Shown: positions 40,460-59,661 of the stretch, one piece after another
Layout: each line of letters begins with the position of its first letter
How positions within the stretch are numbered: position 1 is the stretch's first letter
Source: Fibrobacterota bacterium
Lineage (GTDB): Bacteria > Fibrobacterota > Fibrobacteria > UBA11236
Assembly: GCA_019509785.1 (NCBI GenBank)
Contig: JAEKLQ010000025.1
Span: forward strand, 186,001 to 250,000
Direction of reading: 5' to 3'
Length of the DNA stretch: 64,000 nt
Notes under the pieces: generated by a model
Databases searched by the model: none
What the model was told of the DNA's origin: nothing
The model's input: only the letters and a program-made list of their open reading frames with translations
Program-made: the position numbers and the translations under genes

Positions 40460-40903
40460 TCAGTAGCTCTTGTACGGCAGGAATTTCCCGCTCATGACGA
40501 TGCGTACGCGATCGCCCTTGGGATCGGGCTCCCGCGCGATGTCCATGCTGAAATCGATCGCGCTCATGATGCCGTCCCCGAACTCTTCGTGGATCAGCGC
40601 CTTCAAGGTCGTCCCATAGACGCTTACCAACTCGTAAAAGCGGTAGATGAGCGGATCGGTGGGGACCGCGGTGGGGAGCGATCCCTTGTATGGCACCGTT
40701 TGCAGCGCGGCCACGGCCTCCGGGGGGAGTTCGAAAAGCCTTCCCAAGGCCTCGGCCTGCTCAAGCGAGAAGGTCATCTGCCCCAGTAGGCCCGCGGTCG
40801 TCCACTCCTTGCTCTTGCCTACGGCCTGCGCCGCCTGGGCCCAGGCGATCCTCTTTCGCGCCTTGGCGGCCAGAACGAGCGCGGTGGCTTCGTGACGATC
40901 CAT
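40460..40903 (-). CDS. cynS: cyanase (cyanate hydratase)
   Basis: A 147-residue cyanase that converts cyanate and bicarbonate to ammonia and CO2. The conserved PTDPLIYRFYELVSVYGTTL and GDGIMSAIDFSM blocks hold the catalytic Arg88, Glu91 and Ser114, equivalent to Arg96, Glu99 and Ser122 of E. coli with an offset of eight. The N-terminal helix-turn-helix-like POU domain is present. The start at 40903 has GGGGAGG upstream. It ends the minus-strand run of porin-like and ABC-transporter genes, so imported cyanate is a possible substrate for that transporter. Confidence 0.95.
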   Translation of the reverse strand: MDRHEATALVLAAKARKRIAWAQAAQAVGKSKEWTTAGLLGQMTFSLEQAEALGRLFELPPEAVAALQTVPYKGSLPTAVPTDPLIYRFYELVSVYGTTLKALIHEEFGDGIMSAIDFSMDIAREPDPKGDRVRIVMSGKFLPYKSY

Positions 40904-40924
40904 GGTAACCTCCCCGTTAACGGT

Positions 40925-40942
40925 CGGCGGCTTAGGCCGCCG
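40925..40942 (-). promoter_or_regulatory. intercistronic hairpin between porin and cyanase genes
   Basis: CGGCGGC pairs with GCCGCCG around a 4-nt loop in the 43-nt gap before cyanase. It may stabilise the upstream message or lower read-through. Confidence 0.4.
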
Positions 40943-40946
40943 CCTT

Positions 40947-42293
40947 TCAGAAGTTGAAGGTGGGCATGAAATACAGGAACACGCCGTTTTCGCTCGGGCC
41001 GCCCTTCGCGAGGGTCGCCTTCGGAACGCCGGGGAAGGCCTGGGAGGCCGCCCCGAGCAGGTAGGCATCATCGCCGGGGATGAAGACTCCGGCGCCGAAT
41101 ACGATGTTGGACTTGGGATACCACGCGACGTGCGCTTCCAGATCGATTTCCGATCCGTAGGGATTGTCGATAGCGGACGGCGCGGCTTGGGGCGCGAAGA
41201 AATGGTAGGCGGGTTTCAAGGTCAAGCGCGAATTGCCGGTGGGCCCGGGCAGGAAGCCGAACTCGCCGTCGACGCGGTAATCCACCACGCCATAGCGGGG
41301 ATTCGCCCCGAAGTAATCCATCCAGCCGTAAAGGTTGTGGGCGAAATAGTAATTGGCCCGGTAGGTGTGGTATTGGTCATCCGTCGGATCGTCGTCGCCG
41401 CTCATGACGTCCACTCCCAGGCTCGCCTTCTGGCTGCCCATGACGATCCCCAGGCGGGTTCCCAACTGGAACGCGGCGCTGGTCTTGTCGAGATTCCTGT
41501 TGGTCTTCAGCTCTCCGGCTTGCCAGATGAACTCCTCTTCGAATGCGACGATGCCGAATTTGCCGGCGACGCGCTCGCCGTAGTATTCCAAATCGTAATT
41601 GGCCGTCGTGTCCCCGTTGTGTATGGTCGTAAGGCGATTCTGATCGTAGAAGCTATAAGCTTCCGCGACCAGGTCCGGGGTGATCTGGTGGCTGTAGTAT
41701 AGGCCCCCGAGCGCATCATGATCCTTGGTGACGGTGGCATTGGTGTCGCGCACCAGGAAAGCCATGCCGGTCAGGTTGCCGGGATCGAGGTTCAAGTTGA
41801 AGGACCAACCGTCGAACTGGCGGGAAGTAGGGCTCCATTCCAAGGTGCTCAGGAAGCGGCCGGAGCCGAGGGACATCTTCTGGCGGCCCAGGGCCGTCTT
41901 GAAAGGGCCTTGCTCCACGGCCACATAGCCTTGGGTCAGATCAACGCCGGCGCGGTTTCCCACCGTGGCCGAAGAAGGATTGTTGGCCGCATTGGGCTCC
42001 GATCCATAGTAGCGCACGTCCTGGACCTCGACCTTGATTTCGACCGACGGCGAGGGCACCGCCACGAAACCCAGGCGCGTACGCAACTGGCTGTTGAGGA
42101 GCGACTTCTTCGTCGAGGTATCGGCCATCGCTTTCACATCGTATTCGGTGCGGGTGCGGACTTGGCCGTAGAAGGGAGGCTGGGGCGTAGCATAGGGCGA
42201 TTCCGGCGGCGCCGCCGCCAGGACCGGCAGCGCGCTCAGGGCGAGCAGCGCGGTCAGGGAAAACAGGGTGATTGGGGGGTTCGGGGCTCTCAT
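40947..42293 (-). CDS. alginate-export/porin-like outer-membrane protein
   Basis: A 448-residue exported protein with a signal peptide (cleavage plausible after VLAA) and alternating beta-strands ending in a terminal Phe (FLYFMPTFNF), as in outer-membrane barrels. Segments such as SLLNSQLRTRLGF, VEIKVEVQDVRYYG and QGYVAVEQGPFKTALGRQKM resemble the alginate-export/porin-like group found with nitrogen and cyanate genes. It likely admits small anions for the ABC transporter encoded upstream. Confidence 0.78.
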   Translation of the reverse strand: MRAPNPPITLFSLTALLALSALPVLAAAPPESPYATPQPPFYGQVRTRTEYDVKAMADTSTKKSLLNSQLRTRLGFVAVPSPSVEIKVEVQDVRYYGSEPNAANNPSSATVGNRAGVDLTQGYVAVEQGPFKTALGRQKMSLGSGRFLSTLEWSPTSRQFDGWSFNLNLDPGNLTGMAFLVRDTNATVTKDHDALGGLYYSHQITPDLVAEAYSFYDQNRLTTIHNGDTTANYDLEYYGERVAGKFGIVAFEEEFIWQAGELKTNRNLDKTSAAFQLGTRLGIVMGSQKASLGVDVMSGDDDPTDDQYHTYRANYYFAHNLYGWMDYFGANPRYGVVDYRVDGEFGFLPGPTGNSRLTLKPAYHFFAPQAAPSAIDNPYGSEIDLEAHVAWYPKSNIVFGAGVFIPGDDAYLLGAASQAFPGVPKATLAKGGPSENGVFLYFMPTFNF

Positions 42294-42571
42294 ACTTCTC
42301 CTTAGAGTTTCAGGTTCAGACAGTCTTCTCCCTAGGCGGACCTGGAGGTACGCGAGCGGGCATGATGGTTTCCAAGGGCCGCCGGGAATTGTCCCGCCGG
42401 CCCGGTCGGGCCGATCTTCGGATTCGCGTGGCCGGACGGACCGGCCAGGTTTAAAGGCTCGTCACGCGCCCATGCTCGGACCACGTCCGCGGGACCGGTT
42501 CCCGCGCAGCCGACCCACCGGCTCTACGCCGCCGTCGCATGGCCGGATCCGGCGGAACCGGCCGATGGGTC
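42294..42571. other. GC-rich spacer with inverted repeats between ABC ATPase and porin genes
   Basis: No gene is seen. The spacer contains several GGCCGG-type palindromes and a long-range inverted repeat CCGGTTCC (42495-42502) with GGAACCGG (42554-42561). A partial terminator or RNA-processing region is likely. Confidence 0.4.
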
Positions 42572-43396
42572 TTAAGCTGCGGCAGCATGGCCGGTTCCGA
42601 TCAAGTACTGCAACAGTTCCTTCCGGATCGCCAGGTAATGGGAATCTTCCAAGAGCGCTTCGCGCGTGCGCGGGCGCGGGATGGGTACGTCCACCACCTT
42701 CGCGATGGTGGCCGCTGGCCCGTTGGACATCAGTACGATGCGATCCGAGAGGAACACCGCTTCGTCCACGTCATGCGTGATCATGATGACGGTTTTCCGG
42801 TTCTTCTCCCAGATGGCGGTCAATTCGTCTTGCATGCTGCCGCGGGTGAGGGCGTCCAGCGCGCCGAAAGGCTCGTCCAAGAGCAGCACCTTGGGATCGG
42901 CCGCGAAGGCGCGCGCGATGCCCACGCGCTGCTTCATCCCGCCCGATAGCTGCGGGGGTTTCTTATGGATGTGCGCGCCCAGATGCACCATCTCGACGTA
43001 GCGCTTGGCCTCGGCCAGGCGGAAGTCCTTGGGCTTATCGGGATAGACCGAATCCACGGCCACCAGGACGTTCTCCAGCACGCTTAGCCAAGGCAGGAGA
43101 GAATGGCTTTGGAAGACCACGGCCCGGTCCAGCCCGGGCGCGGTCACCTCTTTGCCGTTCACGGCCACGGTTCCGGTGGTGGGCAGGTAAAGCCCCGCCA
43201 CCAGGTTCAGCAAGGTCGACTTGCCGCAACCCGAATGCCCGATGATGCTCACGAACTCGCCCTTGCCGATGCGCAGGTCCACGCCGGCCAAGGCATGATA
43301 GCGCTTCTTGCCCGAGCCGAACAATTTGTGCACGCCGGAGATGTCCACGAATTTCGCCTCGTTCTCGGCGATTTTATCCGCCACGGGATCGCTCAT
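42572..43396 (-). CDS. ABC transporter ATPase, nitrate/cyanate type (NrtD/CynD-like)
   Basis: A 274-residue ATP-binding subunit. Walker A is IGHSGCGKST, the signature is LSGGMKQRVGIARAF, and Walker B is VLLLDEPFGALDALTRG, as in the nitrate/sulfonate/taurine group. The long N-terminal leader (MSDPVADKIAENEAKF) is slightly extended. AGGAGA precedes the ATG; it begins 1 nt after the permease stop. It energises the transporter formed with the next two genes; nitrate, nitrite or cyanate are all plausible because NrtABCD and CynABD are closely related and cyanase lies downstream. Confidence 0.92.
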   Translation of the reverse strand: MSDPVADKIAENEAKFVDISGVHKLFGSGKKRYHALAGVDLRIGKGEFVSIIGHSGCGKSTLLNLVAGLYLPTTGTVAVNGKEVTAPGLDRAVVFQSHSLLPWLSVLENVLVAVDSVYPDKPKDFRLAEAKRYVEMVHLGAHIHKKPPQLSGGMKQRVGIARAFAADPKVLLLDEPFGALDALTRGSMQDELTAIWEKNRKTVIMITHDVDEAVFLSDRIVLMSNGPAATIAKVVDVPIPRPRTREALLEDSHYLAIRKELLQYLIGTGHAAAA

Positions 43397-43397
43397 T

Positions 43398-44363
43398 TCA
43401 GTCTCCTATGCTTCCGAAGAGGAGGGCGATACGGGCCATGATGCGATCGAGCACCAAGCCCACCATCCCCACGTAGAATACCGACACGATAATGTCGCTC
43501 ATGCGCGACGAGTTCCAGGAATCCCAGATGAAGAAGCCGATGCCGACGCCGCCCGTGAGCATCTCGGCCGCCACGATAGCCAGCCAGGCCATGCCGATGG
43601 CGATGCGCAGGCCGGTGAAGATGTACGGCGCGGCCGACGGCAACATGACCTTGAAGAAGTAGCGCGAGCCCTTCAGCTGGTAGACGCGGGCCACGTTCTC
43701 GTAATCGGCGGGAATGCGCATGATGCCCACCGAGGTATTGATGATGATGGGCCAGATGGCGGTGATGAAGATGACGAACACCGCCGACGGGTTCGCCTGG
43801 TTGAAGGTGGCCAGGGAAATGGGCAGCCAGGCCAGCGGCGGGATGGTACGCAGCACCTGGAAGATGGGATCGAAGGCCTTGAAAGCCATCGCAGATTTGC
43901 CGATCACGATTCCCAGGAAGACCCCCACCACGGCGGCCAGGCTGTAGCCCAGCCCCACGCGCTCCAGGGAAGAAAGCAGATGCCAACCGAGGCCCTTATC
44001 GTTGGGCCCGTTGTCGAACCAGGGATGGGCGATCAGCTTCCACGATTCCGTCACGGTTTTGATAGGCCCCGGCAGGGTCACGCCTGTGCGCGAGGAATAG
44101 ATCTCCCAGAACAGGCCGATGAAGAAGATCGCGATCACCGGCATGATGAAGGTGCGCGCGCGCTCGCGGATGCGTTCCGCGCGTTCGCCGTCCTCGCCGG
44201 GGGGCGGAAGCTTGGCCGCCGGACGTGTCGTCTGCGCGGCCATCCTGCTCTCCATTTTCCCCAGCCCCGGCCCCATGGGCTTGGGCCGTTCCGTCCCCGA
44301 CTTTTGCCCGTTCGTCAGGGATTTCTCCTGCGACGGGAACTTGGGTTGCGTATCCATGATCAT
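43398..44363 (-). CDS. ABC transporter permease, nitrate/cyanate type (NrtB/CynB-like)
   Basis: A 321-residue permease with a hydrophilic N-terminus of about 70 residues and about six hydrophobic segments. The EAA-like loop PLAWLPISLATFNQANPSAVF and the GMAWLAIVAAEMLTGGVGIGFF segment are typical of NrtB/SsuC. Start chosen at 44363, where ATGA overlaps the stop of the solute-binding gene; a second ATG two codons later is possible. It is the membrane channel of the operon. Confidence 0.9.
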   Translation of the reverse strand: MIMDTQPKFPSQEKSLTNGQKSGTERPKPMGPGLGKMESRMAAQTTRPAAKLPPPGEDGERAERIRERARTFIMPVIAIFFIGLFWEIYSSRTGVTLPGPIKTVTESWKLIAHPWFDNGPNDKGLGWHLLSSLERVGLGYSLAAVVGVFLGIVIGKSAMAFKAFDPIFQVLRTIPPLAWLPISLATFNQANPSAVFVIFITAIWPIIINTSVGIMRIPADYENVARVYQLKGSRYFFKVMLPSAAPYIFTGLRIAIGMAWLAIVAAEMLTGGVGIGFFIWDSWNSSRMSDIIVSVFYVGMVGLVLDRIMARIALLFGSIGD

Positions 44364-45724
44364 TTCTTCGCGCCCTTCTTGCCGTCGATGTTCTTGATCT
44401 TCAGCTTGGCCAGGTAGCCTTCCGGATCGTTGGGGTCGAAAGTCACGCCGTCGAAGAAGGTCTCCACACCGCGCGAATCGCTCTCGGGGATCATCGCTTC
44501 CTGCCCGATCGCTTTGGCGCATTCCTTCCACAGGTCGGCGCGGTTCACTTCGCCGATCACCTTGTCGTAGTCCACGCCGTTGGGGAGGAAGCCCCAGCGC
44601 CGGGTCTCGGCCAGGAACCACTTATCATGGCTCTTGTAGGGGAAGGAGGCATGGTCGCGCCAGAACTTCATGAACTCGCCTTCCTTGGGCTTGCGCTTGC
44701 CGTCGCCGTATTCGGTGTGGCCCTGGATCCTGGGAAGCAGATCCTCGACGTTGCAATTGATCCAGTTCTTCTGGGAGAGGATGGTAGCCAATTCCTTGGC
44801 GTTCTCGGGCTTATCGCACCACATCTGGGCTTCCATCACGGCCTTCAGCAGCGCTTTGGTGGCGATAGGATGCGCGTCCACCCAATCCTTGCGCATGGCG
44901 AAGGACTTCTCCGGATGGTCCTTCCAGATTTCCTGGGTTTGGATGGCCGTATAGCCGATGCGCTGGTTGATAAGCTGCTGGCCCCATGGCTCGCCCACGC
45001 AGAAGGCGTCCATGTTGCCTACGCGCATATTGGCCACCATTTGCGGGGGAGGGATCACGATGGTGGCGACGTCCACGTCCGGGTCGATCCCGCCGGCCGC
45101 CAACCAATACCGGATCCAATAATTATGCGTCCCGGTGGGGAAGGTCATGGCGAAAGTAAGGGGCTTTCCGCCCTTCTTCTTCGCCTGCGCGATCCAGGGT
45201 TTGAACGGCGATGCATCCTTGCCGATGCCGTCTTCCGCGTACTTGGAGGCGACGGAGATGGACTGGTTGTTATAGTTCAGGCGCGCCAGGATGTACATGG
45301 GACAGGGTTTATTGCCCTTGGTCACCAGCCCTAAGGTCAAGGCGTAAGGCATGGGCGTCAGGATATGGGCGCCGTCGATGCCTCCGTTGCCGGAACCGAG
45401 CTCGAGGTTGTCGCGCGTGGCGCCCCAGGAAGCCTGCTTAAGCACTTCCACGTCGGGCATGCCGTACTTGGCGAACAAGCCCTTTTCCTTGGCGATGGCC
45501 AGCGGGGCGAAATCGTTGAGCGCGATATATCCGAGCTTGGCCTTGGTGGTCTCGGGCTTATCCTGCGCCGCCGCGCGGCCCGTCGCGGCCAATGCCAGCG
45601 CGATCCCCGCCAGGACGCCCAGGGCCTTGCGCATGCGGGCCGGGAATCCGATCGCATTTCGTGATCCTTGTAACGGTTTATCGGATCCGGTTCGGGGTGT
45701 AAGGGGGGACGGGAATGCCTTCAT
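44360..45724 (-). CDS. NrtA/CmpA-type nitrate-binding protein
   Basis: A 454-residue solute-binding protein. A long n-region and hydrophobic core (KALGVLAGIALALAATGRAAA) form the export signal. Family blocks are KLGYIALNDFAPLAIAKEKGLF, GNGGIDGAHILTPMPYALTLGL and GNMDAFCVGEPWGQQLI, as in NrtA; the length (about 450) also fits NrtA or CmpA. It binds nitrate, nitrite or a related oxyanion such as cyanate or bicarbonate. AAGGAG precedes the ATG. It starts an operon with permease, ATPase, porin and cyanase genes, read from a sigma-54-like promoter 500 nt upstream. Confidence 0.9.
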   Translation of the reverse strand: MKAFPSPLTPRTGSDKPLQGSRNAIGFPARMRKALGVLAGIALALAATGRAAAQDKPETTKAKLGYIALNDFAPLAIAKEKGLFAKYGMPDVEVLKQASWGATRDNLELGSGNGGIDGAHILTPMPYALTLGLVTKGNKPCPMYILARLNYNNQSISVASKYAEDGIGKDASPFKPWIAQAKKKGGKPLTFAMTFPTGTHNYWIRYWLAAGGIDPDVDVATIVIPPPQMVANMRVGNMDAFCVGEPWGQQLINQRIGYTAIQTQEIWKDHPEKSFAMRKDWVDAHPIATKALLKAVMEAQMWCDKPENAKELATILSQKNWINCNVEDLLPRIQGHTEYGDGKRKPKEGEFMKFWRDHASFPYKSHDKWFLAETRRWGFLPNGVDYDKVIGEVNRADLWKECAKAIGQEAMIPESDSRGVETFFDGVTFDPNDPEGYLAKLKIKNIDGKKGAKK

Positions 45725-46364
45725 GATCGGACTCCTTGATTTGATCGAACCGGCCGGCGTGCGGGCGCCGGCCAGGGAAAAGGTGCGGACCCCCGGCAGG
45801 AGGCATGGGGAACATGGTCCTGCCGGGGAAAGGGACCGGGGATGGGTCCCACCCGGGGCTGGGAAGGTCCATCCGAGGTTACGCGGAAGGACGGCGCCGG
45901 GATCCCGCTGGGGAGCGGAGTCGGGTTCCGCGCCGGCGGCGGAGGCCGCCTGGCGCGAACCGAAGTATCCTAAAGCTTTCCGATCCAGCGAACCCATTGG
46001 GCATACTCCTTCGGCCGAAATCGACCGGGGTGGGTATGTCCAAAAGCCCGGACGGACCGGAGTAAGCGGGATCCGCGGAAGCGGATCCTAGTGCGCTTGC
46101 GCGCCCTCGCCTATCGTTTGCGCCGCGGCGCCGGGATGATCCCGGCCCCCAAGGGTTCCGTTTAAAACCTGCGACGCGAACGTTCAGTTGGCGTATTGTT
46201 ACGGACGTCATTCATGAAAAGCAAAGCGTGGGCCAAGCTTGCCGTCGCGACAATCCAGCGCAATCGGCCGCTAATCGCGCCCGCACGGACCTCTAAAGTC
46301 ACGAATGGCAAGTTCTGTCACGAACCCGCCAACAATTGGCGGCAATGGGAAAAGGATTTCGGTA
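45725..46364 (-). other. 640-nt non-coding region: promoter and long leader of the nitrate/cyanate transporter operon
   Basis: No credible gene. On the minus strand it holds a sigma-54-like promoter (46220-46235) and then a leader of about 485 nt with several hairpins: GGATCCGC/GCGGATCC (46069-46088), a 12-bp GC stem with one bulge (about 45930-45957), CCCGGCAGGA/TCCTGCCGGG (about 45792-45827) and GGCCGGCG/CGCCGGCC closing CCCGCA (about 45752-45773). A leader this long and structured suggests attenuation. Confidence 0.6.
46220..46235 (-). promoter_or_regulatory. sigma-54-like promoter of the nitrate/cyanate transporter operon
   Basis: TGGCCCACGCTTTGCT on the minus strand keeps GG and GC ten bases apart and matches TGGC, TTGC and flanking A/T of the -24/-12 consensus; only the A of TGGCAC differs. 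Start site predicted near 46209. Confidence 0.65.
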
Positions 46365-47423
46365 TCAGGCTTCGCGCGGATCGGCGGCGACCGCGGAGGA
46401 TGCGGCCTTACGGGGTAGCCCGGAGGTTACGGATCGGTAAAATGATTCCAGGCACACGTCGGAAAGATCCAGGGAACGGGCCACCGTAGCGTCGGCGTTA
46501 CCCCAGCGGATCATCTGCCCCAAATACCAACGCGCGTGCTCGCGGGCCGGGAACACGGGGGCATCGCCGTGGCGGAAATCGGCCCAAGTATCGGGGCCGC
46601 TGCTATCGGGGTTTTCCGCGAAGCTGCGCAGGGCCCCTTCGATCACGTTCTTGGGGGTATTGACGTAATGCTTGGAGGCCAGGATCTCGACCGCGCGCGG
46701 GCGATTGACGGGATCTTCCAGCCACTCGGATGCCTGGTATAGCGCCCGTATCAGGCGCGCATGTTCCAAGGAATGGGAGCGGTGCCATCCCAGGCGGACG
46801 CCCAATACCTTGTCGCCCAAGCCGGGCAGCAGCGTCCGGCTCTCGGCCGTCAATCGTCCCAGCTTGGAAGCCGCCGCGCGGCGGCTCCAGGGCTCGGCCA
46901 CGCAGAAGCCGTCGATCTCGCCCTTGCGCAACCGGCCCACCATCTCTTGCGGCGCCACGAAGCTTAAGGAAATGCGTTTCCCCACCTCCATGCCGGCCCG
47001 GCCGAGCCAAGTGCGCAGGATATATTCCTGGGGGCTTTCCGGGAAGACCACGCCCAAGCGCAGAACGCGTTCGGGATCGGCATCCAACCAGGCGCGCAAG
47101 GAGACGGGATCATGCGCGCCCTGGTTCCAGAGCGCGTTGGATAGGATGATGCCGTTGCCTTTATAGCCCAGGGTGAGCGCGTAAACGATCGGCGGCTCGT
47201 CGGGCAAAGCATCCAGCGCGGCTTGCAAGGCGGCCGTGTGGAGCAGATGGGAGGCATCCAGCTCCCCGGCGACGAGCTTATCGAATGCCTGTCCCCAGGA
47301 CTGCGCCTTGCGCAGTTCCACTTCCACCTGCTGCCGGGCGAAGAAGCCTTCCTCCTGGGCCACGGCGAGCAAGGCGCAATCGACCAGGGGAATGAAGCCG
47401 ATGCGGATGATCTCGCCGGGCAA
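46365..47423 (-). CDS. NasS-like cytoplasmic nitrate/nitrite-binding protein
   Basis: A 352-residue protein related to NrtA (IRIGFIPLVDCALLAVAQEEGFF, DGFCVAEPWSRRAA) but without any export signal and about 100 residues shorter than the NrtA-type protein at 44360. This is the profile of NasS, the cytoplasmic nitrate sensor that restrains the antiterminator NasT. No nasT is present in this window. The start is TTG at 47423 with GGAG upstream; I see no better ATG. It follows the NarK-type transporter by 20 nt, so both are probably one operon. Confidence 0.78.
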   Translation of the reverse strand: MPGEIIRIGFIPLVDCALLAVAQEEGFFARQQVEVELRKAQSWGQAFDKLVAGELDASHLLHTAALQAALDALPDEPPIVYALTLGYKGNGIILSNALWNQGAHDPVSLRAWLDADPERVLRLGVVFPESPQEYILRTWLGRAGMEVGKRISLSFVAPQEMVGRLRKGEIDGFCVAEPWSRRAAASKLGRLTAESRTLLPGLGDKVLGVRLGWHRSHSLEHARLIRALYQASEWLEDPVNRPRAVEILASKHYVNTPKNVIEGALRSFAENPDSSGPDTWADFRHGDAPVFPAREHARWYLGQMIRWGNADATVARSLDLSDVCLESFYRSVTSGLPRKAASSAVAADPREA

Positions 47424-47443
47424 ACCGAACTCCGTTCATTTTC

Positions 47444-48658
47444 TTACACGCGCGCGCGGGCTACTTCCGGGGAGCCCCAGGTGGCGCGCCAACGGAACTT
47501 CACCTTGAAAAGGATACCGAAGGCGCAAGCGCCCAGCAAGGCATATAGCAAGAAGCCCAACCGATAATCGCCGGTGAGTTGCTTGGACATGCCCAGCGAG
47601 GAAGCCAGGTAGAAGCCGCCGATGCCGCCGGCCATGCCCACCAAGCCGGTCAGCGTGCCGATTTCCTTCTGGAACCGCTGGGGCAGAAGTTGGAAGACCG
47701 CGCCATTGCCCATGCCCATGGCCATCATCCCAACGACGAAGAGGGAGAGGGTAATGGCCAGTGAGGTCGGAAGCACGGCCACGCCGAGCATGGCGAACAC
47801 GACGACCACGTAGAGGTATTGGAGGGCGCGCGCGCCTCCGAAGCGATCCGCCACGCTTCCGCCGATGGGCCGGAACATGGATCCGCAAAAGACTATGCCC
47901 GCGGTGAGGTAGCCGGCTACCTGCGGCGGCAACCCGAACTGGCTATTGAAATAGATGACGAGGCTGGAAGCCAGGCCCACGAAGCCGCCGAAGGTGACCA
48001 GGTAGAAAAGCATGAACCACCAGGCGTCGCGCTGCTTGAGGACCTGGAAGTAGCGCGTGAGAGGCTGGGCCGCGGGACGACCCGGGGCGTCCTTGGCCAG
48101 CCAGGCGTAGATGACCATGGTGATCGAAAGGGGGATAAGGACCAAGCCCAATACCCCGTTCCATCCGAAGTGATTGGCTAGGGCGGGGGCGAATAGGGCC
48201 GAGAAGACCGTACCGGAATTGCCCGCGCCCGCGATCCCCAAGGCCAGGCCCTGGGCTTCGGCGGGATACCAGCGCGATGCCAGGGGCAACGCGACCGCGA
48301 AGGAGGCTCCGGCCACACCGAGGCAGACGCCCAGGGCATAGACCGCGTGCAGGCTGTGAAGGCCCACCATCCAGGAAATGGCCAAGGCCGCCAATACGGT
48401 GCCCTGTCCGATTAGCCCGGCGCGCTTGGCGCCGATGCTATCTACCAGAAGCCCCATGAAGACGCGCATGACCGCGCCCGAGAGCACGGGGACGGCGACC
48501 ATCATGCCCTTCTGCGCGGGCGAAAGGCCCAGGTCTTTGGCGATGTGCACGCCCAAGGGGCCGAGCAGCACCCAGACCATGAAGCTCATGTCGAAATAGA
48601 GGAAAGCGGAAAACAGGGTGGGCACGTGGCCGGCCTTCGCGAAGTCTTTCAATCTCAT
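47444..48658 (-). CDS. NarK/NasA-type MFS nitrate-nitrite transporter
   Basis: A 404-residue major facilitator with about twelve hydrophobic segments. Nitrate-transporter motifs are visible: GLGVAGASFAVALPLASRW-like (GVAGASFAVALPLASRWYP), GIAGAGNSGTVFSALFAP (nitrate signature 1-like) and GMGNGAVFQLLPQRFQ (signature 2-like), with a candidate substrate-binding Arg in VMRVFMGLLVD. It takes up nitrate or exports nitrite. Start chosen at 48658 after AGGAG; a sigma-54-like element ends about 27 nt upstream. Confidence 0.92.
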   Translation of the reverse strand: MRLKDFAKAGHVPTLFSAFLYFDMSFMVWVLLGPLGVHIAKDLGLSPAQKGMMVAVPVLSGAVMRVFMGLLVDSIGAKRAGLIGQGTVLAALAISWMVGLHSLHAVYALGVCLGVAGASFAVALPLASRWYPAEAQGLALGIAGAGNSGTVFSALFAPALANHFGWNGVLGLVLIPLSITMVIYAWLAKDAPGRPAAQPLTRYFQVLKQRDAWWFMLFYLVTFGGFVGLASSLVIYFNSQFGLPPQVAGYLTAGIVFCGSMFRPIGGSVADRFGGARALQYLYVVVVFAMLGVAVLPTSLAITLSLFVVGMMAMGMGNGAVFQLLPQRFQKEIGTLTGLVGMAGGIGGFYLASSLGMSKQLTGDYRLGFLLYALLGACAFGILFKVKFRWRATWGSPEVARARV

Positions 48659-48684
48659 CTTGGGTCTCCTGCCTGACAATTCCA

Positions 48685-48700
48685 AGCAAAGGATGCGCCA
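48685..48700 (-). promoter_or_regulatory. sigma-54-like promoter of the NarK/NasS operon
   Basis: TGGCGCATCCTTTGCT on the minus strand has GG and GC ten bases apart and differs from the -24/-12 consensus only at the A of TGGCAC. Start site predicted near 48675, leaving a leader of about 17 nt that just holds the ribosome site. Confidence 0.7.
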
Positions 48701-48995
48701 TCCCGAACCTCGAGCCTGAAATGTCAAGCCGGATCACCCCTTAAACGGGTCGTTCCCGGGAGCAGGTCCCCATTATATACAGGAGAAGGGGGATGAAACG
48801 AAACACGCAGGTTACCCCTCGTCGCTTGAAGCGAGCCAGGCCCGCCTCCCAAAGGACGCCAACTCCCAAGCTTTCCCCCGTTTTGTAAATCTGGAAATCG
48901 TGACATTTGCTTCCAATTGTAAACAGACCTTTCCTTGACACCCCCCCGCATGCCCTTCCTTTCCTGATTTCGGAGTGAACGGGGAGAAATTTTTA

Positions 48996-49011
48996 TGGTA
49001 TGCCCTTTGCG
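48996..49011 (+). promoter_or_regulatory. sigma-54-like promoter of the nitrate/nitrite reductase operon
   Basis: TGGTATGCCCTTTGCG has GG and GC ten bases apart, with TTGC intact and TGGTAT in place of TGGCAC. Start site predicted near 49022, about 77 nt before the nitrite reductase start. Weaker match than the two minus-strand elements. Confidence 0.55.
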
Positions 49012-49098
49012 TTCTTAGCTCGGTAACACGCCAATTGTCACCGGTCCGTCCGAGCCTTTGGCCATCGCAATATCCCCTGGTATCAGGAGGAGAGGGCT

Positions 49099-51018
49099 AT
49101 GGCACAGGATCTAAACGCCGGTAACGGACCCGGAACGCTGTCGACGCTTCCCGCAGGCGGCTTCCCCCAGTCCTTCACGCCCACCCAAAAGGAATACCTC
49201 GACGGGTTCCTTCGCGCGCTTTCCGGCCCCGCAGCCGGAAACCCTGTCGCAGCCCGGACCGCCGCCGGCGCTAAGCCCTCCGCCTCCGCGTCCGCCTCCA
49301 CATCTTCCGAAATCGACTTGCCCCCGGGCAAGCGGGCGCAGTTGGCCTGGCAGGCCGCCGGCAAGCGCCTGTCCAAGGAAGAGCAGATCAAATTCGATTC
49401 CGATCCCCTCGATTGCTGGCCGCGCATCGCCGAGCTTTCCGCCCAGGACAAATTGCCCGAGGGCGAGGACGTCTTCCGTTTCAAGACCCATGGCCTATGG
49501 AACGTCTCCCCCGCGCAGACGTCGATGATGAGCCGCCTCCGCATCGCCGGCGGAGTTCTCAAGTCGCACCAAGCGCTTGCCATCGCCGCCGCCGCGGAAG
49601 CCTATGGCGGGGGCTTCGTGGACATCACTACGCGCGCCAATCTCCAGATCCGGGAAATCCCCGGTCGCCACATGCTCGCGCTCTTGACCGATATGCACGA
49701 GGCCGGCATCGTTCCGCGCGGTTCCGGAGCGGACAATATCCGCAACGTCACCGGCAACCCCACCTGCGGCATCGACCCCCACGAGTTCTACGACGTGCTG
49801 CCCCTCTGCCGTGAGTTGCATCATGCCATCTTGCACGACCGTTCCATGTACGGCCTGCCGCGCAAGTTCAACATCGCCTTCGACGGGGGCAATAGCATCG
49901 CCTCCCTGGAAGACACCAACGACATCGGCTTCCAAGCGGTGAAGGTGGACGCGGGCAAGGCCGTGGAAGCCGGGGTCTATTTCCGCATGGCCCTCGGGGG
50001 CATCACCGGCCATGGCGATTTGGCCCGCGATACCGGAGTCCTGCTCAAGGCGGAGGAATGCGTGCCGGTGGCGCGCGCCATCGTCCGCGTCTACCTGGAA
50101 AACGGCGATCGCGGCAACCGCAAGAAGGCCCGCCTCAAGTACGTCCTCGACTCGTGGGGCTTCGAAAAGTTCCTGGCCGAGGTCCAGAGCAAGCTTCCCT
50201 TCGCGCTGCGGAAATTGCCCGCGGCCGAATGCCGCTTCGCCCCTCCCGTCGACAAGGGCGCCCATCTCGGCATCCACTCCCAGAAGCAAGCGGGCCTTTG
50301 CTACATCGGCGTGGACGTACCGGTGGGCCGGTTGACTTGCGCCCAACTCCGCGGCCTGGCCGATTTGGCGACCCGCATGGGTTCCGGGGCGCTTCGGCTT
50401 ACCGTTTGGCAGAACCTGCTCCTTCCGGACATCCAGGAAGCGCGCCTGGAAGAAGCCCTTAAGGCCCTCGGGGCCTTGGGCCTTACCCATGAGCCCGACC
50501 CGATCGCGGCCGGTCTGGTCGCCTGCACCGGCAGCGAAGGTTGCAAATTCGGGCTGGCCCCGACCAAGGCCACCGCCCAGGACATCTCCGCCTACCTGAA
50601 GGGACGCGTCACCTTGGACGCGCCGGTCAACATCCATCTCACGGGCTGCACCCATTCTTGCGCCCAGCATTTCATCGGGGACATCGGCCTCTTGGGCACC
50701 GGCGTGGAGACCGACGCCTACAAGGGCCCGGGCTTCCACTTCTATATCGGAGGCGGCTACGGCCGCGAAGGCCGCATCGCGGTGGCGGCGCGCCGCTCCG
50801 TGCCCCGCCCCGAGGTTCCCGCCGAAGTGGCCCGCATCTTGGAACTCTACCTCGGGAAGCGCCTTCCCGGGGAAACCTTCACCGCCTTCACGGCGCGCCA
50901 TTCCGGAGCCGAATTGGAAGCATTATTCGCCGCCCCCGCGGACACCTCCGCCGGAGCCTTAACCGGGGAGGCCGTCCCCTCTGATAAAGGCCTTTCCCTG
51001 GCCGGGGAAGGGGCATAG
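49099..51018 (+). CDS. NirA-type sirohaem nitrite reductase
   Basis: A 639-residue sirohaem/4Fe-4S reductase, reducing nitrite to ammonium (or sulfite to sulfide). The four cluster cysteines are in CTGSEGC (476/482) and CTHSC (517/521), the usual Cx5C and Cx3C pattern. Family blocks GNPTCGIDPHEFYDV and LPRKFNIAFDGG are present. The first 90 residues are an extra Ala/Ser-rich extension that starts with SFTPTQKEYLDGFLRAL, a motif also found at the start of the flavoprotein that follows. AGGAGG precedes the ATG. First gene of a five-gene nitrate operon; nitrite is the likely substrate given the partners. Confidence 0.92.
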   Translation: MAQDLNAGNGPGTLSTLPAGGFPQSFTPTQKEYLDGFLRALSGPAAGNPVAARTAAGAKPSASASASTSSEIDLPPGKRAQLAWQAAGKRLSKEEQIKFDSDPLDCWPRIAELSAQDKLPEGEDVFRFKTHGLWNVSPAQTSMMSRLRIAGGVLKSHQALAIAAAAEAYGGGFVDITTRANLQIREIPGRHMLALLTDMHEAGIVPRGSGADNIRNVTGNPTCGIDPHEFYDVLPLCRELHHAILHDRSMYGLPRKFNIAFDGGNSIASLEDTNDIGFQAVKVDAGKAVEAGVYFRMALGGITGHGDLARDTGVLLKAEECVPVARAIVRVYLENGDRGNRKKARLKYVLDSWGFEKFLAEVQSKLPFALRKLPAAECRFAPPVDKGAHLGIHSQKQAGLCYIGVDVPVGRLTCAQLRGLADLATRMGSGALRLTVWQNLLLPDIQEARLEEALKALGALGLTHEPDPIAAGLVACTGSEGCKFGLAPTKATAQDISAYLKGRVTLDAPVNIHLTGCTHSCAQHFIGDIGLLGTGVETDAYKGPGFHFYIGGGYGREGRIAVAARRSVPRPEVPAEVARILELYLGKRLPGETFTAFTARHSGAELEALFAAPADTSAGALTGEAVPSDKGLSLAGEGA

Positions 51019-51020
51019 CC

Positions 51021-52976
51021 ATGACCGTACCTTATTTGCCCGAATCCGCCCCCTTCAGCCTCGATCAGCGCATGTGGCTGAACGGTTTCCTGGCCGGCCT
51101 GGCCAACGGCCTCATTCCCGCCGCGCCCCCCTCCGTAGCACCGGCGTTACCCGTGCTGGTTTTGTACGGGTCCCAGTCCGGGACCGCCGAGGGGTTGGCG
51201 CATGCCCTCGCCGATAAGTTGAAGGCCGCCGCTTTCGCCAACGGTTCGCCGGCCGAGCCCCGCGTGGCCTGCATGAATACCTATAAGGACATCGCCTGGG
51301 CTTCCGAGAAGACCATACTGTTGCTCACCAGCACCTGGGGCGACGGCGACATGCCGGATAACGGCGTGGCCTTTTGGGAATGGCTGAAAAGCCCCGAGGC
51401 CCCCGCCCTCGCCCACGTGAACTATGCCGTCTTCGGCCTGGGGGATAAGACCTACACGCGTTTCTGCCAGGCGGGCAAGAACCTGGATTCCCGTTTCTCC
51501 GAGCTGGGCGCCAAGCGCATGTTGCCCTTGTGCGAATGCGATACCGATTACGAGGCCAAGGCCGAGGAGTGGATGGCCCATGCCCGCGGGGCGCTGGAGC
51601 CCATCGCCGCCGCCTTGGGAGGTTCTTCTGGCGAAGGCGCGGCTCCCGCCATGTCCCATCCCGCGACCACGGGTCCCGCCGTCATCGGCGCCAACGGCCA
51701 TGGCTCCGCGACGGCCAACGGAAGCGCCAACGGCGCCGCGGGGAACGGCGCGACCGCGAATGGTTCGTCCATGAACTCCATTTCCGTGAACGGAACGAAC
51801 GGCGCCCACGGCACCAATGGGACCGCCGCCAAAGCCGCTTCCGCCTATTCCCGCAAAAACCCCTTCCCCGCCGCCTTGCTGGAAAACCATCCTTTGAACG
51901 CCAAAGGCTCCGCCAAGGATACCCGCCATATCGCCTTGTCGCTTTTGGGCAGCGGCCTGGAATACCGCGCCGGCGACGCCTTGGGCGTGCAGCCGCGCAA
52001 TTGCTACGAGCTGGTGGACCGCGTCATCCTTTCACTCAATTGCCTGGGCAACGAAAAGATCGCCTTGGAGGGAGGCGAAGAGTTCGCCTTGCGCGCCGCC
52101 CTCCTCAACCGGCTCGATCTGCGCCGCGGATCCGAAAAGCTCCTGCGGCGGTTGTTGGAGATTTGCCGCAACGGCGGCGAGCAACGCCGCCTGCGCGATC
52201 TCACTTCCGGCGACGGCGAGAAGTTGAAGGCTTACCTGGCCGAACGCGATCTGCTGGACGTGCTGGAGGATTTCCCGCATACCCGCATCGATGCCCAGGA
52301 TCTGGCGGTGACCTTGCCCAAGCTCGCGCCGCGCCTCTATTCCATCGCGAGCTCGCCCAAGGAGAACCCCGGCGAAGTGCACCTGACCATCGGCGTCGTC
52401 CGCTACCTGAACGACGGCCGCCTACGGCGGGGCGTGACCTCCACCTTCCTGGCCGAACGCGTTCCCCTGGGCCTCACGGTCCCCGTATTCGTGCAGCCCT
52501 CCGCCCATTTCAGCCTACCTGCCGACGGAAAAACACCCATCATCATGGTGGGCCCCGGCACCGGCGTGGCGCCTTTCCGTGCCTTCCTGCAAGAGCGGCG
52601 CGCCAACGGCGACGCCGGCAGGAATTGGCTCTTTTTCGGCGATCAGCGCCGGCGTTTCGATTACCTGTACAGCGAGGAGTTCGCCGGCATGCAGGCCGCG
52701 GGACATCTCTCGCGCCTGGACCTGGCCTTCTCGCGCGATCAGGAAGAGAAGGTCTACGTGCAGGATCGCATGTTGGAGAAGTCGAAGGAGCTCTTCGCCT
52801 GGCTCGAAGAAGGCGCGCATTTCTACGTCTGCGGCGATGCCAAGCGCATGGCCAAGGACGTGGAGGCGGCCTTGCTGCACGTGATCTCCAAGGAAAGCGG
52901 GAAAGGCCCGGAGGAAGCCAAAGCCTACCTGGAGAAGTTGAAGGAAGGGAAGCGCTACCAGCGCGACGTATACTGA
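51021..52976 (+). CDS. CysJ-like diflavin reductase
   Basis: A 651-residue flavoprotein in the CysJ/cytochrome P450 reductase style. Residues 45-195 are a flavodoxin domain (VLYGSQSGTAEGLA, LLTSTWGDGDMPD, FGLGDKTY), then a flexible Asn/Gly/Thr-rich linker of about 65 residues, then the FAD/NADPH domain (PRLYSIASSP, RRGVTSTFLA, IMVGPGTGVAPFRAFL, YVCGDAKRMAKDV). It passes electrons from NADPH through FAD and FMN. Two nt after the nitrite reductase gene, it probably feeds electrons to it, as CysJ does to CysI. The N-terminus repeats the FSLDQRMWLNGFLAGL motif. Confidence 0.92.
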   Translation: MTVPYLPESAPFSLDQRMWLNGFLAGLANGLIPAAPPSVAPALPVLVLYGSQSGTAEGLAHALADKLKAAAFANGSPAEPRVACMNTYKDIAWASEKTILLLTSTWGDGDMPDNGVAFWEWLKSPEAPALAHVNYAVFGLGDKTYTRFCQAGKNLDSRFSELGAKRMLPLCECDTDYEAKAEEWMAHARGALEPIAAALGGSSGEGAAPAMSHPATTGPAVIGANGHGSATANGSANGAAGNGATANGSSMNSISVNGTNGAHGTNGTAAKAASAYSRKNPFPAALLENHPLNAKGSAKDTRHIALSLLGSGLEYRAGDALGVQPRNCYELVDRVILSLNCLGNEKIALEGGEEFALRAALLNRLDLRRGSEKLLRRLLEICRNGGEQRRLRDLTSGDGEKLKAYLAERDLLDVLEDFPHTRIDAQDLAVTLPKLAPRLYSIASSPKENPGEVHLTIGVVRYLNDGRLRRGVTSTFLAERVPLGLTVPVFVQPSAHFSLPADGKTPIIMVGPGTGVAPFRAFLQERRANGDAGRNWLFFGDQRRRFDYLYSEEFAGMQAAGHLSRLDLAFSRDQEEKVYVQDRMLEKSKELFAWLEEGAHFYVCGDAKRMAKDVEAALLHVISKESGKGPEEAKAYLEKLKEGKRYQRDVY

Positions 52977-54697
52977 TGGCCCCCTCGCTTTCCAAATTCA
53001 TGGGGGATGGCGAAGAACTCATCGGCGCCTACCTGCAAGAACAACAGAACCTGACGGCGGTGGAGCGCTTTTCCAACCTCCACGACGCGAGGCATGCGAG
53101 CGGCGCGCCCAGCCTGGAAAGCCATTATCGCGATCTGCTTCCCCTGGAAAAGCCCAAGCCCGGCCAGCAATACGCCTTCGAGGTCGATCTGGATCGCTGC
53201 ACGGGCTGCAAGGCCTGCGTCACCGCCTGCCACAGCCTCAACGGCTTGGACAGCGGGGAGACCTGGCGTTCGGTGGGCCTCATCCACAATCCGATCGGCA
53301 AGCGCTTGCAGCAGACGGTCACCACCGCCTGCCAGCATTGCCTGGAACCCGGGTGCGCGCATGGCTGCCCCGTCAAGGCCTACGAAAAGGATCCGGTCAC
53401 CGGCATCGTTAAGCACCTGGACGATCAATGCATCGGCTGCGAGTACTGCATCCTGAAATGCCCTTACGACGTGCCGCAATACAACCACGAGCGGGGCATC
53501 GTGCGCAAGTGCGATATGTGCGTGGGCCGCCTGGAAGTCGGCGAGGCCCCCGCCTGCGTGCAGGCTTGCCCCACCAAGGCCATCCGCATCACCCTGGTCG
53601 ATCAAGCCGAAGTCCGCAGCCATTACGCCGAGTACGCGGCCCTGCCCGGCGCGCCCGATCCGCGCCATACCTTGCCGACCACGCGCTATAAGACCGTCCG
53701 TAAATTCCCCGAGAGCATGGAAGCGGCCGACGCGTACAAGCTGCGCAAGGAAAAGCCCCATTATCCGCTCACCTCCATGTTGACCTTGTCCCAGCTGGCC
53801 GTCGGCCTTTTCATCCTGCTGGAGGCGGGCACCCTCGCGGGCATCCTTCCCACGCACGCTGGTTTCCAGGCCGCCGGCCATCTCACGGCCGCGCTCATCC
53901 TCTTCGCGTCCATCGTCCTCAGCGTCGCCCACCTGGGCCGGCCCCTCTACGCCTTCCGCGCCTTCCTGGGGCTGCGCCGTTCCTGGCTCAGCCGCGAGAT
54001 CCTCGCCTTCACCTTGCTAGGGGGATGGGTCTCCGTCGTCACCGCGGGCGTCTTGGCCACCGCGTTCGGTCCCGCGCTCACCCTGCATTTCCCCGCCCTA
54101 GGCCCGTCCCTCGGGAAAGCCGCCGCCTGGACCGGCAGTCCCGCCTCGCGCATCGCCCTTTGCCTGCTCGGCCTGGCCGCCTTGCATTGTTCCGCCATGA
54201 TCTACCGCGACACGCCCCGCGCCTTCTGGGCCACGCGCCATACATCGGCCAAGTTCCTGCTCACGGCCCTGGCCGGCGGCCTGGCCAGCCTGCTTACCTT
54301 GGGGATGGTCGCTACCCTATGGGTCCCCGCCTTCGCGGACGGATTGGCGGCTTGGGGCCGTTGGGTTTGCATCGCCCTTCCCTTCGCCGTGTTCGCCAAG
54401 CTCGCCGTGGAAGCCCGCATCCACCGCCATGGCGACGATCAAGAGCCCACGCCCCTCAAGAAGACCGCCTTGCTGTTACGCGGTCCCTTGCGCGTAGCGC
54501 ATGCCTGGCGCTTCAACGCCGGCCTCTTGGGCGGATTCATCCTCCCCATGTTCTGGCTGTACCGCGACCGCGCCGCATTCGGCGCCGGCGATCTTATTCT
54601 CGCCCTTTCCATCCTGGCCGCCGTCCTGGCGGGGGAATGGCTGGAGCGATACCTGTTCTTCACCGCCTGCGTGCCGCCGCGCATGCCGGGCGCCTGA
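52976..54697 (+). CDS. DmsB-DmsC fusion: 4Fe-4S ferredoxin plus membrane anchor
   Basis: A 573-residue fusion. The N-terminal 260 residues hold four Cys clusters of the DmsB/NrfC type ([47 protein letters not shown]). The C-terminal 300 residues have about eight hydrophobic segments resembling DmsC/NrfD quinol-oxidising anchors ([20 protein letters not shown]). It would carry electrons from quinol to a molybdoenzyme. The start overlaps the diflavin reductase stop (TGATG). The catalytic partner is almost certainly the NasA-like protein encoded next. Confidence 0.9.
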
Positions 54698-54713
54698 GCG
54701 CGGAAAGCGAACC

Positions 54714-56999
54714 ATGGCCGTAAAAGATCGTCTGGCCGGGCTCTTCAAGGACCGCAACGGCCGCCTCACCCACGAGATGGTGCTTTCGCCCGGCCGCTTC
54801 GGCCTGGGCAAGACGCCCCATCGCCTGCGCCCCGACGCGACCACCAGCATGGTGTGCGGCTTCTGTTCCACGGGCTGCAGCCTTAAGATCCACATGAAGG
54901 ACGGCAAGGCCGTCAACCTCACCCCCGATCCCGATTATCCCGTGAACCTGGGGATGGCCTGCCCCAAGGGTTGGGAAGCCCTGACCCCGCTGGCCTCGCC
55001 CGATCGCGCCACCACGCCCCTGCTCCGGAACGCCTTCGGAGCCTTGCAGCCGGTGGACTGGGACACGGCCCTCAAGACCTTCGTGGCCCGCTTCCGGGGC
55101 GTGCTGGAACGGCACGGGCGCGAGGCCGGGGCCTTCCTGAGCACCGGCCAGATCCCCACCGAGGAGATGTTCACGCTCGGGCTTTTGGCCAAGTTCGGCA
55201 TGGGGCTCTTGCATGGCGACGCCAATACGCGCCAATGCATGGCCACCTCCCACGTCGCTTACAAGCAATCCTTCGGGTTCGACGCGCCGCCCTTCGCGTA
55301 TAAGGATTTCGAGGAATCGGACGTGCTCGTCTTCATCGGGGCCAATCCTTGCATCGCCCATCCCATCATGTGGGAACGGGTGATGATGAACAAACGTAAA
55401 CCGGAAATACTGGTGGTTGATCCGCGGCAAACGGAGACCGCCTTGGCGGCTACGCGCCATTATCCCATCCTCCCCAAGTCGGATTTGGCCCTGCTCTACG
55501 GCCTCGCCCACGTCCTCTTCGCGGAAGGCTGGATCGATCGCGAATACATGGAAGCGAATACCGTCGGTTGGGAAGGCTTCCGCGAACACGTACGGACCTT
55601 CGATCCGGAATCGGCGGGAGCCATGACCGGCCTCGGGGCCGCGCGCATCCGGGAGTTCGCCGCCCTGCTAAAGCCCGGCAAGCGGGTTTCCTACTGGTGG
55701 ACCATGGGCGTGAACCAGGGGCATGAGTCGGTACGCACCGCCCAGGCCATCATCAACCTGGCCCTCATGACGGGCAACATCGGCAAGCCGGGCACTGGCG
55801 CCAATTCCATCACCGGCCAGGTCAACGCCATGGGCTCGCGCCTCTTCAGCAACACCACCGGCCTGCCCGGCGGCCGCGATTACGCCAATCCCGCCCACCG
55901 CGAGGAAGTGGCTTCCCTGCTCGGCATCGACGCCGCCATCATCCAGGATAAGCCGGGCCAGGCTTATGATCAGATCATCGACGGCGTGGAGGCCGGGCGC
56001 ATCAAGGCCCTGTGGGTGATCGCCACCAATCCCGCGCATTCCTGGATCAACCAGGAGTCCTTCCGCCGCGCGGCCGCGAAGCTCGAGTTCCTGGTCGTGC
56101 AGGACATGTACCCCAACACGGAAACAGCCCAATTGGCCCATCTCGTTCTCCCTTCCGCGGGATGGGGAGAGAAGGAAGGCGTGGTCATCAATTCCGAGCG
56201 CCGCCTGGGGCTCTTCAAAAAGGTTTCCCCCGCCCCCGGCCAGGCCTTGGCCGACTTCTACATCTTCAAGCTGGTCGCTAAGTATTGGGGCTGCGACGCC
56301 CTCCTGTCCCGCCTGAACTCCCCGGAAGACGCTTTCCGGCTGATGGGGGAATTCTCGCGCGGCCGTCCTTGCGACATCTCCGGCATTCCCGGCTACGCCG
56401 CCATCGACGCCGAGGGCGGCATCCAATGGCCGCGCCGGCCCGGTCCAGTAGGCGCGGATGCCGGCGCATCGGATGCGGGCGCATCTGGGCCAAATGCTGG
56501 CGCATCAGATGCGGGCGTATCCGGTCCGGACGCGGGCCGCGAACGCCGTCTCTTCGCCGACGGGCGCTTCTTCCATTCCGATGGCAAGGCCCGTTTCCTG
56601 TTCGCGCCTCCCCAGCCCCTACCCGAGCCCCCCGACGCGGACTATCCTTTCGCCTTGCTCACCGGGCGCGGATCCTCGGCGCAATGGCATACCAACTCGC
56701 GCACCGGAAAGTCGGCCGTGCTCCGCAAGCTTTATCCCTCCGAGCCGCAGATCGAAATCCATCCCGACGATGCGGCGCGCCTCAAGATCGTTTCGGGGGA
56801 TTGGGTCGCGGTCATATCGCGGCGCGGACAGGCCCGCGCCCGGGCGCTGCCCGCTTCCACCGTGCAGCCGGGCCAAGTGTTCATGACCATGCACGACGCG
56901 GCCGTGAATAAACTTACCTTTCCGGCATTCGATCCCCATTCGCGCCAGCCTTCCTATAAGCACTGCGCGGTGCGGATCGCCCGGGAGCCGGCCGCCTAA
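54714..56999 (+). CDS. nasA: assimilatory nitrate reductase catalytic subunit (NasA/NarB type)
   Basis: A 761-residue molybdopterin oxidoreductase. The N-terminal 4Fe-4S motif is Cys48, Cys51, Cys55 and Cys83 ([19 protein letters not shown]). Segments such as [17 protein letters not shown] and [17 protein letters not shown] fit cytoplasmic nitrate reductases, and there is no twin-arginine signal. Between residues 580 and 612 an in-frame tandem repeat of about 30 residues rich in Gly, Ala, Ser and Asp expands a loop. It reduces nitrate to nitrite. The operon lacks the NAD(P)H-type NasB subunit and instead supplies a quinol-type partner upstream. Confidence 0.93.
56457..56537 (+). repeat. 36-bp tandem repeat inside the nitrate reductase gene
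   Basis: About 2.2 copies of a 36-bp unit encoding AGASDAGxSGPN/D. It is a GC-rich minisatellite that lengthens a loop without breaking the frame. Confidence 0.7.
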
Positions 57000-57070
57000 G
57001 CCCATCGGAAGACGGGCCCAGGCGTTTTCCGCCGCCCCGTCGCCGACCCTTTCGCTCCCAGGGAGATCCG

Positions 57071-57544
57071 ATGGACACCCAATTCTTCGGTTTCGAATCC
57101 GACTTCGTGGACTCCATGCGCTGCATCCCCATGGCCGCCCGCCTCCGGCTCGATCGCACCGGGGTAAAGCTTAAACTCAACGAATGGTCCAAGCTCGCCC
57201 CCGAGCTGCGCATGGCCCTGGCCCAATCGCCCTGCGGTTCGCCCGCGGAACGGGAACAGTGGAAGAACTTTCTGCTAGGCTTGGTGGAACAGACCTCCGG
57301 CTCCGCGCCTTCGCTTCTGCCCGAACCCGTCGAAGAAGCCTGGGAAGATCGGGGAACGGTGCCGGCCCAAGTATCTGCGCAAGCCCGGTCCCTGGGGCTC
57401 GCGCTGGATTCCGCTGCCTGGGCGGCGCTCACGCCCTTGCAACGTTTCGCTCTGGTGAAGCTCAGCCGGCCCGGCCATGAGAACCGCAATTTCCGCCCGG
57501 CCATGCAAGAGTTCGGCCTGATCCAAGAGGGCGCCGGAGACTAG
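57071..57544 (+). CDS. nitrate-reductase-associated protein
   Basis: A 157-residue protein of the TIGR02664 type, first noted next to cyanobacterial and other assimilatory nitrate reductases. The start FFGFESDFVDSMRCIPM and the GVKLKLNEWSKLAPELR block are typical. The exact role is unknown; a maturation or regulatory role is inferred from its constant neighbour. GGGAGA precedes the ATG. The stop codon shares the palindrome CTAG with the stop of the convergent HAD gene. Confidence 0.85.
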   Translation: MDTQFFGFESDFVDSMRCIPMAARLRLDRTGVKLKLNEWSKLAPELRMALAQSPCGSPAEREQWKNFLLGLVEQTSGSAPSLLPEPVEEAWEDRGTVPAQVSAQARSLGLALDSAAWAALTPLQRFALVKLSRPGHENRNFRPAMQEFGLIQEGAGD

Positions 57545-58197: not shown

Positions 58198-58412
58198 GTC
58201 CGCCCTCCTCCCCTGCAAACATAAGAAACTGCTTATCCTGGCTGGATGAGCCTTTTTGTATACCATCCTATACACTCTTTCCCCGGGAACTGGATATCAG
58301 GGGTATCCATCCTCACTCCCGTCCCGGCACTTTGACGGAACGATTTTTGGACCCGACCTCTTTTTTCCCAAAAAGGACGAATTACATTTCTTTGCCATCA
58401 ATTTCCGAATAG

Positions 58413-58428
58413 TGGCATGGATGTTGCC
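58413..58428 (+). promoter_or_regulatory. sigma-54-like element or TGGCA palindrome upstream of Gfo/Idh/MocA gene
   Basis: TGGCATGGATGTTGCC matches the -24/-12 layout (GG and GC ten bases apart; TTGC intact). It also sits in the palindrome TGGCA-7 nt-TGCCA, so an operator reading is possible. The start codon is 35 nt downstream. Confidence 0.45.
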
Positions 58429-58462
58429 ATTAGCGGGTCCAATCATCGAGTAAGAGGGAATC

Positions 58463-59587: not shown

Positions 59588-59661
59588 CGGCCGCACGGTC
59601 CCTCCTCGCATCATCCAATTCGGTCTATTCCAATCCCCTTTTCAATCTCGAAAGGTCAAGA

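Follow-up and report, generated by a model that had tools for sequence, protein, structure and literature searches.

The DNA analysed here, a window of 64,000 nucleotides (nt) on contig C25 (JAEKLQ010000025.1, positions 186,001 to 250,000) in a 5.4 Mb, 96% complete assembly of a Fibrobacterota bacterium (GCA_019509785.1), carries a nitrate-assimilation island of three operons: nrtA-nrtB-nrtD-porin-cynS, narK-nasS, and a reductase operon running from nirA to the gene for a nitrate-reductase-associated protein (Table 1). We propose, with a probability of about one half, that the island is controlled by sigma-54 promoters together with a translational switch in the transcript leaders that works without ANTAR proteins. 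The promoters are well supported; we infer the leader switch, together with the transcription starts, the structure of the RNA in the cell, the direction of the switch, its signal and the identity of the activator.

In the proposed mechanism, sigma-54 RNA polymerase would turn on the island from three -24/-12 promoters, on which an enhancer-binding protein would act from upstream sites. Transcripts of both the reductase and the nitrate ABC-transporter operons would start with the helix P1 (CCAA/UUGG) around a CGG-UCCGN-CCG hairpin, and the 3' strand of P1, with the bases that follow it, could pair alternatively with the start codon region. A nitrogen signal, namely nitrate or nitrite bound directly or sensed via NasS or another protein, would stabilise P1 and free the start codon. 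Such a translational layer would replace the NasS-NasT/ANTAR antitermination of other bacteria.

Probable sigma-54 promoters of the nitrate island

A -24/-12 element at the head of each operon had been reported in an earlier note on this DNA. The three 16-mers are found exactly at the positions given there, all with ten bases between GG and GC and the common TTTGC, and each points toward its operon; the gene names assigned to the three operons were upheld as well. The description of the elements as lying just upstream of their genes applies to narK and nirA, with 23 and 87 nt, respectively, between element and ATG, and needs qualifying for nrtA: here the ATG (45727) is 492 nt away, and an in-frame ATG farther upstream, at 45997, is at a distance of about 220 nt.

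The promoter assignment was examined among relatives. From a sample of 167 genomes of the phylum, we compared the islands of seven NasS-bearing genomes of one family, five of them from the window's genus (its own genome included) and two from a second genus. Of 24 nitrate operon-head regions in these genomes, 22 contain TGGYN7TTGC, whereas 200 dinucleotide shuffles averaged 0.575 such regions and never exceeded 3; before this formal count, the upstream region of nrtA was trimmed to 760 bases in G163 (from 1990) and to 770 bases in G161 (from 1960). Both heads without the motif belong to nasS in the second genus. A -24/-12 match heads nirA, nrtA and narK in all seven genomes, G159 narK excepted: in this genome narK is not on the contig, and the match precedes nasS instead. 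In two genomes of another family, G164 and G165, the promoters of which lie outside the count above, the dmsBC site of G164 fits the -24/-12 pattern, the nirA site of G165 deviates from it (TAGC), and the narK and nrtA sites are weak. No sigma-70-like promoter match was found in 48660-49110 or 45720-46365, the two regions scanned. Judged from the sequences, the three elements are very likely real, conserved sigma-54 promoters, ordinary in kind.

A conserved leader element behind two promoters

Alignment of the intergenic regions showed that promoters are followed by a block whose conservation is at least equal to theirs. The earlier note was right about the promoters and had overlooked this conserved leader element, which follows two of them in the window. 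Its consensus is (G)CCAAYYG-N4-CGGTCCGNCCG-NNCYTTTGG, which reads as CCAA...CGG-UCCGN-CCG...UUUGG in RNA. The element is found ahead of nirA and nrtA in 7/7 family genomes, as well as in front of narK in both second-genus genomes and of one of the narK copies in G156, and a related form occurs in G164 and G165. Across the phylum sample, a protein search found NasS-like proteins in nine genomes and NirA in eight, and all of the latter have the leader element.

The orientation of the element relative to the gene is constant. With the predicted transcription start set at 12 nt past the -12 GC, the 5' half starts at +6 to +25 in 17/19 copies; the other two have it at +42 and +46. The gap between the two halves is 4-5 bases in 13/19 copies and 62-127 bases in six nrtA copies, that of the window included.

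A covariance model was built from 9/11 copies, omitting two second-genus nirA copies that MAFFT had misplaced by one base, both of which the model later recovered. It matches 12 places in seven of the 167 phylum genomes, in nitrate islands only; nine of the 12 had been used to train it, and it recovered just one of the six split nrtA copies. A fixed-pattern scan of 84,980 species returned 44 stretches. All nine stretches from Fibrobacterota (eight records) lie within a nitrate island, adding two further Fibrobacterota, and tblastn detected no island genes around the other 35 except in L106, where the match is to a generic ABC ATPase. Rfam gave no match in 45000-64000 (E values up to 5) or in the nirA leader (E values up to 10), and a search of the open-access literature returned no report on nitrate-assimilation control or on such a leader in Fibrobacterota. 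We conclude that the leader element is real and conserved, absent from Rfam, and probably regulatory; its mechanism we infer as set out above.

The block might alternatively be a DNA site for a regulator acting just past the transcription start rather than an RNA element. Its fairly constant distance from the nearby promoter and its nearly invariant core would suit such a site. Nevertheless, we consider this distinctly improbable, as the orientation to the gene never varies and the two halves not only complement each other but also pair with start regions. Moreover, both halves are kept in the six nrtA copies in spite of the long stretches between them, an arrangement open to an RNA but hardly to be expected of a single DNA operator.

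Predicted pairing with the start codon regions

Folding predictions show the helices P1 and P2 in several nirA leaders, and the consensus fold of these leaders has them too. In the consensus fold of five nirA leaders, bases following P1 can pair with the initiation region (Table 1), and a CCUG/CAGG hairpin adjoins the Shine-Dalgarno sequence. The consensus fold for nrtA of the window's genus pairs UUGG.CAUAC with GUAUG.CCAA at the upstream in-frame ATG, and the open reading frame starting there has the Shine-Dalgarno sequence AAGGAG. By eye, the nirA and nrtA leaders of the second genus also offer alternative pairings of the same strand with the start regions. Because UUGG is the 3' strand of P1 as well, the P1 and start-codon states would be in competition in the case of nrtA and, in part, of nirA. 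These models are suggestive of a downstream start-codon partner of the leader.

Results against the proposal and its main alternatives

Several results weigh against the combination of sigma-54 promoters and a leader switch. As to the promoters, TGGCN6TTTGCT with at most one mismatch was seen six times in the window against 4.17 expected, and TGGCN6TTTGCW has 30 sites in the genome against 19 for the reversed control. As to the activator, the genome has 20 strong enhancer-binding proteins, and not one of them reached the NCBIfam cut-off for NtrC (558.6 bits), the best score shown being 425.5; the search took in the protein inside the window and, at a limit of 1e-130, the other 19, six of these also at 1e-100. 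As to the leader, most narK copies of the window's genus have the promoter but lack the leader element. The P1/P2 core is nearly invariant, pair counting yielding one changed pair, C-G instead of G-C in the copies of G164 and G165, and the folding energies of the nirA leaders are no better than those of shuffles (z 0 to -1.2). Single start-codon duplexes compared with shuffled start regions gave modest fractions of 0.013-0.42 over 13 of the 17 leaders, narK of G163 and G161 and two nrtA leaders being left out.

By count in one genome, -24/-12 matches are unremarkable and near the controls; the six TGGYN6TTTGC sites of the window include the three elements in question. The counts would agree with the motifs being chance matches, the operons using other promoters. 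We find this hardly credible in view of the motif at nearly all operon heads compared, its near-constant distance to the leader element, and the lack of sigma-70-like matches in the two scanned regions. The -24/-12 reading is sound because of conservation at 22/24 heads, and not because of the counts.

A weightier alternative is that sigma-54 nitrogen control acts alone and the leader is passive, serving mRNA stability or ribosome loading with no switch. The promoter evidence speaks for this explanation too, and it accommodates both the ordinary folding energies and a nearly invariant core without decisive covariation. An ordinary stabilising leader should, however, occur at other genes also, and the element is restricted to nitrate islands, where it stands at several different operons. 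We regard a passive leader as a serious alternative, albeit a rather unlikely one.

If sigma-54 promoters and a leader switch do act together, it is attractive to speculate, tentatively, that the leader belongs to a new class of nitrogen-responsive RNA that opens the start codons of sigma-54-transcribed reductase and transporter operons, being either a nitrate/nitrite riboswitch or an ANTAR-free target of NasS. Direct binding of a nitrogen oxyanion would make it a new riboswitch class, and binding of NasS a new RNA-protein switch. A compact RNA element of this kind could account for a NasS-type sensor working without NasT. With these promoters, sigma-54 control of nitrate use would reach into a phylum where we found no such report in the open-access literature.

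Comparison with known systems

The promoters share with other sigma-54 nitrogen-assimilation promoters the -24/-12 spacing, the presence of rpoN and enhancer-binding proteins, and the nitrogen genes downstream; they differ in that no NtrC was found here at the NCBIfam cut-off. Some operons of the NasS-NasT type, in Pseudomonas and Azotobacter, also use sigma-54.

According to the cited passages of PMC3795266 (NasS-NasT, nas operons, e.g., Paracoccus denitrificans) and PMC3369936, nitrate leaders act through ANTAR proteins, and the hairpin loops of ANTAR leaders are defined by A1 and G4 (PMC3369936). Like the NasS-NasT systems in those passages of PMC3795266, the island has a gene for a NasS-like sensor and a conserved leader structure before reductase genes, and its logic of a leader behind a promoter is the same. 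These likenesses, and the NasS-like protein in particular, would fit a diverged NasT-type (ANTAR) leader whose protein went undetected, an explanation we rate as very unlikely. ANTAR domains were found in 0/9 NasS genomes by the same profile search that found them in 25 of the 167 phylum genomes, which served as a positive control. No terminator-like site was found in the leader regions 48660-49110 and 45720-46365, where the predicted pairing involves the start codon instead, and the conserved loop, UCCGN, has no A1/G4 pattern as defined in the cited passages. The island thus resembles ANTAR leader systems in logic but not in the features that define them, and NasT/ANTAR antitermination was dropped for want of an ANTAR protein in the NasS genomes and of a terminator-like site in the leaders.

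The molybdenum cofactor riboswitch (RF01055) was also considered, as it would suit a molybdoenzyme operon, and a few letters of what we take to be its sequence resemble the leader. The Rfam model search rejected the identity: RF01055 matched none of the 167 genomes while matching the E. coli control, and no Rfam family matched at the leader.

The activator and other nitrogen genes

The rpoN gene, on which the earlier note had made its reading depend, is present in the genome, along with 20 strong and five weak enhancer-binding proteins identified by Sigma54_activat matches. Sigma-54 control, as claimed in that note, is borne out by rpoN, the conserved elements, the lack of a sigma-70-like match and a site upstream of urtA described below; the NtrC-type activator it had supposed is not, none being found at the cut-off. 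L005, a GAF-AAA-HTH_8 protein, is NifA-like (484.6 against the NifA cut-off of 528.85) and recurs at 77-79% identity in 4/4 second-genus genomes examined, whether the island is present or absent. L005, L009 and L010 are shared by genomes that have the island and genomes that lack it, and no island-specific activator was found among the enhancer-binding proteins when G160-G163 were compared with the window genome (L015 left out). One enhancer-binding protein is encoded inside the window (27894-29705, minus strand) and has an N-terminal PEP-hydrolase-like sensor domain (PF09370), to our knowledge an unusual pairing with a sigma-54 activator; nothing ties this protein to nitrogen.

Words of the TGTCA type are common upstream of the promoters. 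The word TTGTCA, often 80-110 bases ahead of the -24 element, occurs in 10/19 upstream regions against 1.75 expected, while the shuffle maximum for any 6-mer averages 9.3 and the region lengths were hand-chosen. Word enrichment and a conserved block point tentatively to a candidate activator site, TTGTAA-N12-TGACA, between the divergent operons (Table 1). No NifA-type TGT-N10-ACA site was seen by eye in the upstream region, and no inverted-repeat dyad with 4-base arms was common to at least five of the 19 upstream regions.

A further sigma-54-like site, TGGCATTTGAATTGCT, lies upstream of urtA (L180:3743-3758, minus strand), with urea transport, urease and P-II genes nearby, in line with nitrogen control. 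The motif TGGCAYAGRGATTGAT is repeated in L180:9307-10551 ahead of a porin-like gene and a P-II gene beside the urease cluster. A -24-like site, TGGCAYRGGGATTGAT, precedes P-II genes in the window genome and G156 and, in a weaker form, in G158; it was not seen in the P-II upstream regions read from other genomes (13 of 16 loci gave a start).

Features of the island and side observations

Table 1. Positions in the window of the genes, predicted promoters and leader features of the nitrate island.
Feature	Positions	Strand	Remarks
nrtA, nrtB, nrtD, porin, cynS	40460-45727	-	Gene annotation
Open reading frame starting at ATG 45997, same frame as nrtA	45728-45997	-	Sequence; longer NrtA or leader peptide
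Predicted pairing of GGACAUAC with GUAUGCCC in the nrtA leader	45995-46041	-	Predicted fold; at the start of the upstream in-frame open reading frame (ATG 46004 or 45997)
Split nrtA leader element, 3' half	46040-46059	-	CGGTCCGTCCGGGCTTTTGG; alignment; 125 bases past the 5' half
Split nrtA leader element, 5' half	46185-46192	-	GCCAACTG; alignment
Predicted -24/-12 sigma-54 promoter, nrtA-nrtB-nrtD-porin-cynS	46220-46235	-	TGGCCCACGCTTTGCT; nrtA counterpart in 7/7 family genomes
NasS-like nitrate sensor	46365-47423	-	Closest solved relatives are NrtC regulatory domains
narK nitrate/nitrite transporter	47444-48661	-	Gene annotation
Predicted -24/-12 sigma-54 promoter, narK-nasS	48685-48700	-	TGGCGCATCCTTTGCT; leader of about 12 nt, without leader element
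Candidate activator site between divergent operons, TTGTAA-N12-TGACA	48883-48905	.	Conserved block and word enrichment; tentative
Predicted -24/-12 sigma-54 promoter, nirA-nasA operon	48996-49011	+	TGGTATGCCCTTTGCG; sequence and conservation
nirA leader element	49030-49062	+	P1 GCCAA (49030-49034) with UUGGC (49058-49062)
nirA leader hairpin CGG-UCCGU-CCG	49042-49052	+	Alignments, covariance model, predicted fold
Possible pairing of CAUnGC (49063-49068) with GC-U-AUG (49096-49101), nirA initiation region	49063-49101	+	Consensus fold, five leaders
nirA, CysJ-like flavoprotein, FeS/DmsC protein, NasA, nitrate-reductase-associated protein	49099-57544	+	Gene annotation

The start region of the frame from ATG 45997 is well formed and conserved in the genus. 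A related leader open reading frame, the stop of which overlaps the narK ATG, precedes narK in G156 (L076). From their sequences, both frames could possibly encode a small leader protein. The same genome (L076, G156:C60) carries two narK-nasS pairs, of which one combines a long leader with the leader element and the second has no more than a short sigma-54 promoter leader.

In the reductase operon (52979-56999, plus strand), a 4Fe-4S/DmsC-like membrane protein accompanies the assimilatory nitrate reductase, an unusual partner for an assimilatory enzyme. In the second genus, an apparent fusion of a PP2C-type phosphatase and a Ser/Thr kinase, identified by eye, lies between narK and nrtA (L079:9034-10899 and L080:11216-12904); this gene has no counterpart between the operons of the window's island.

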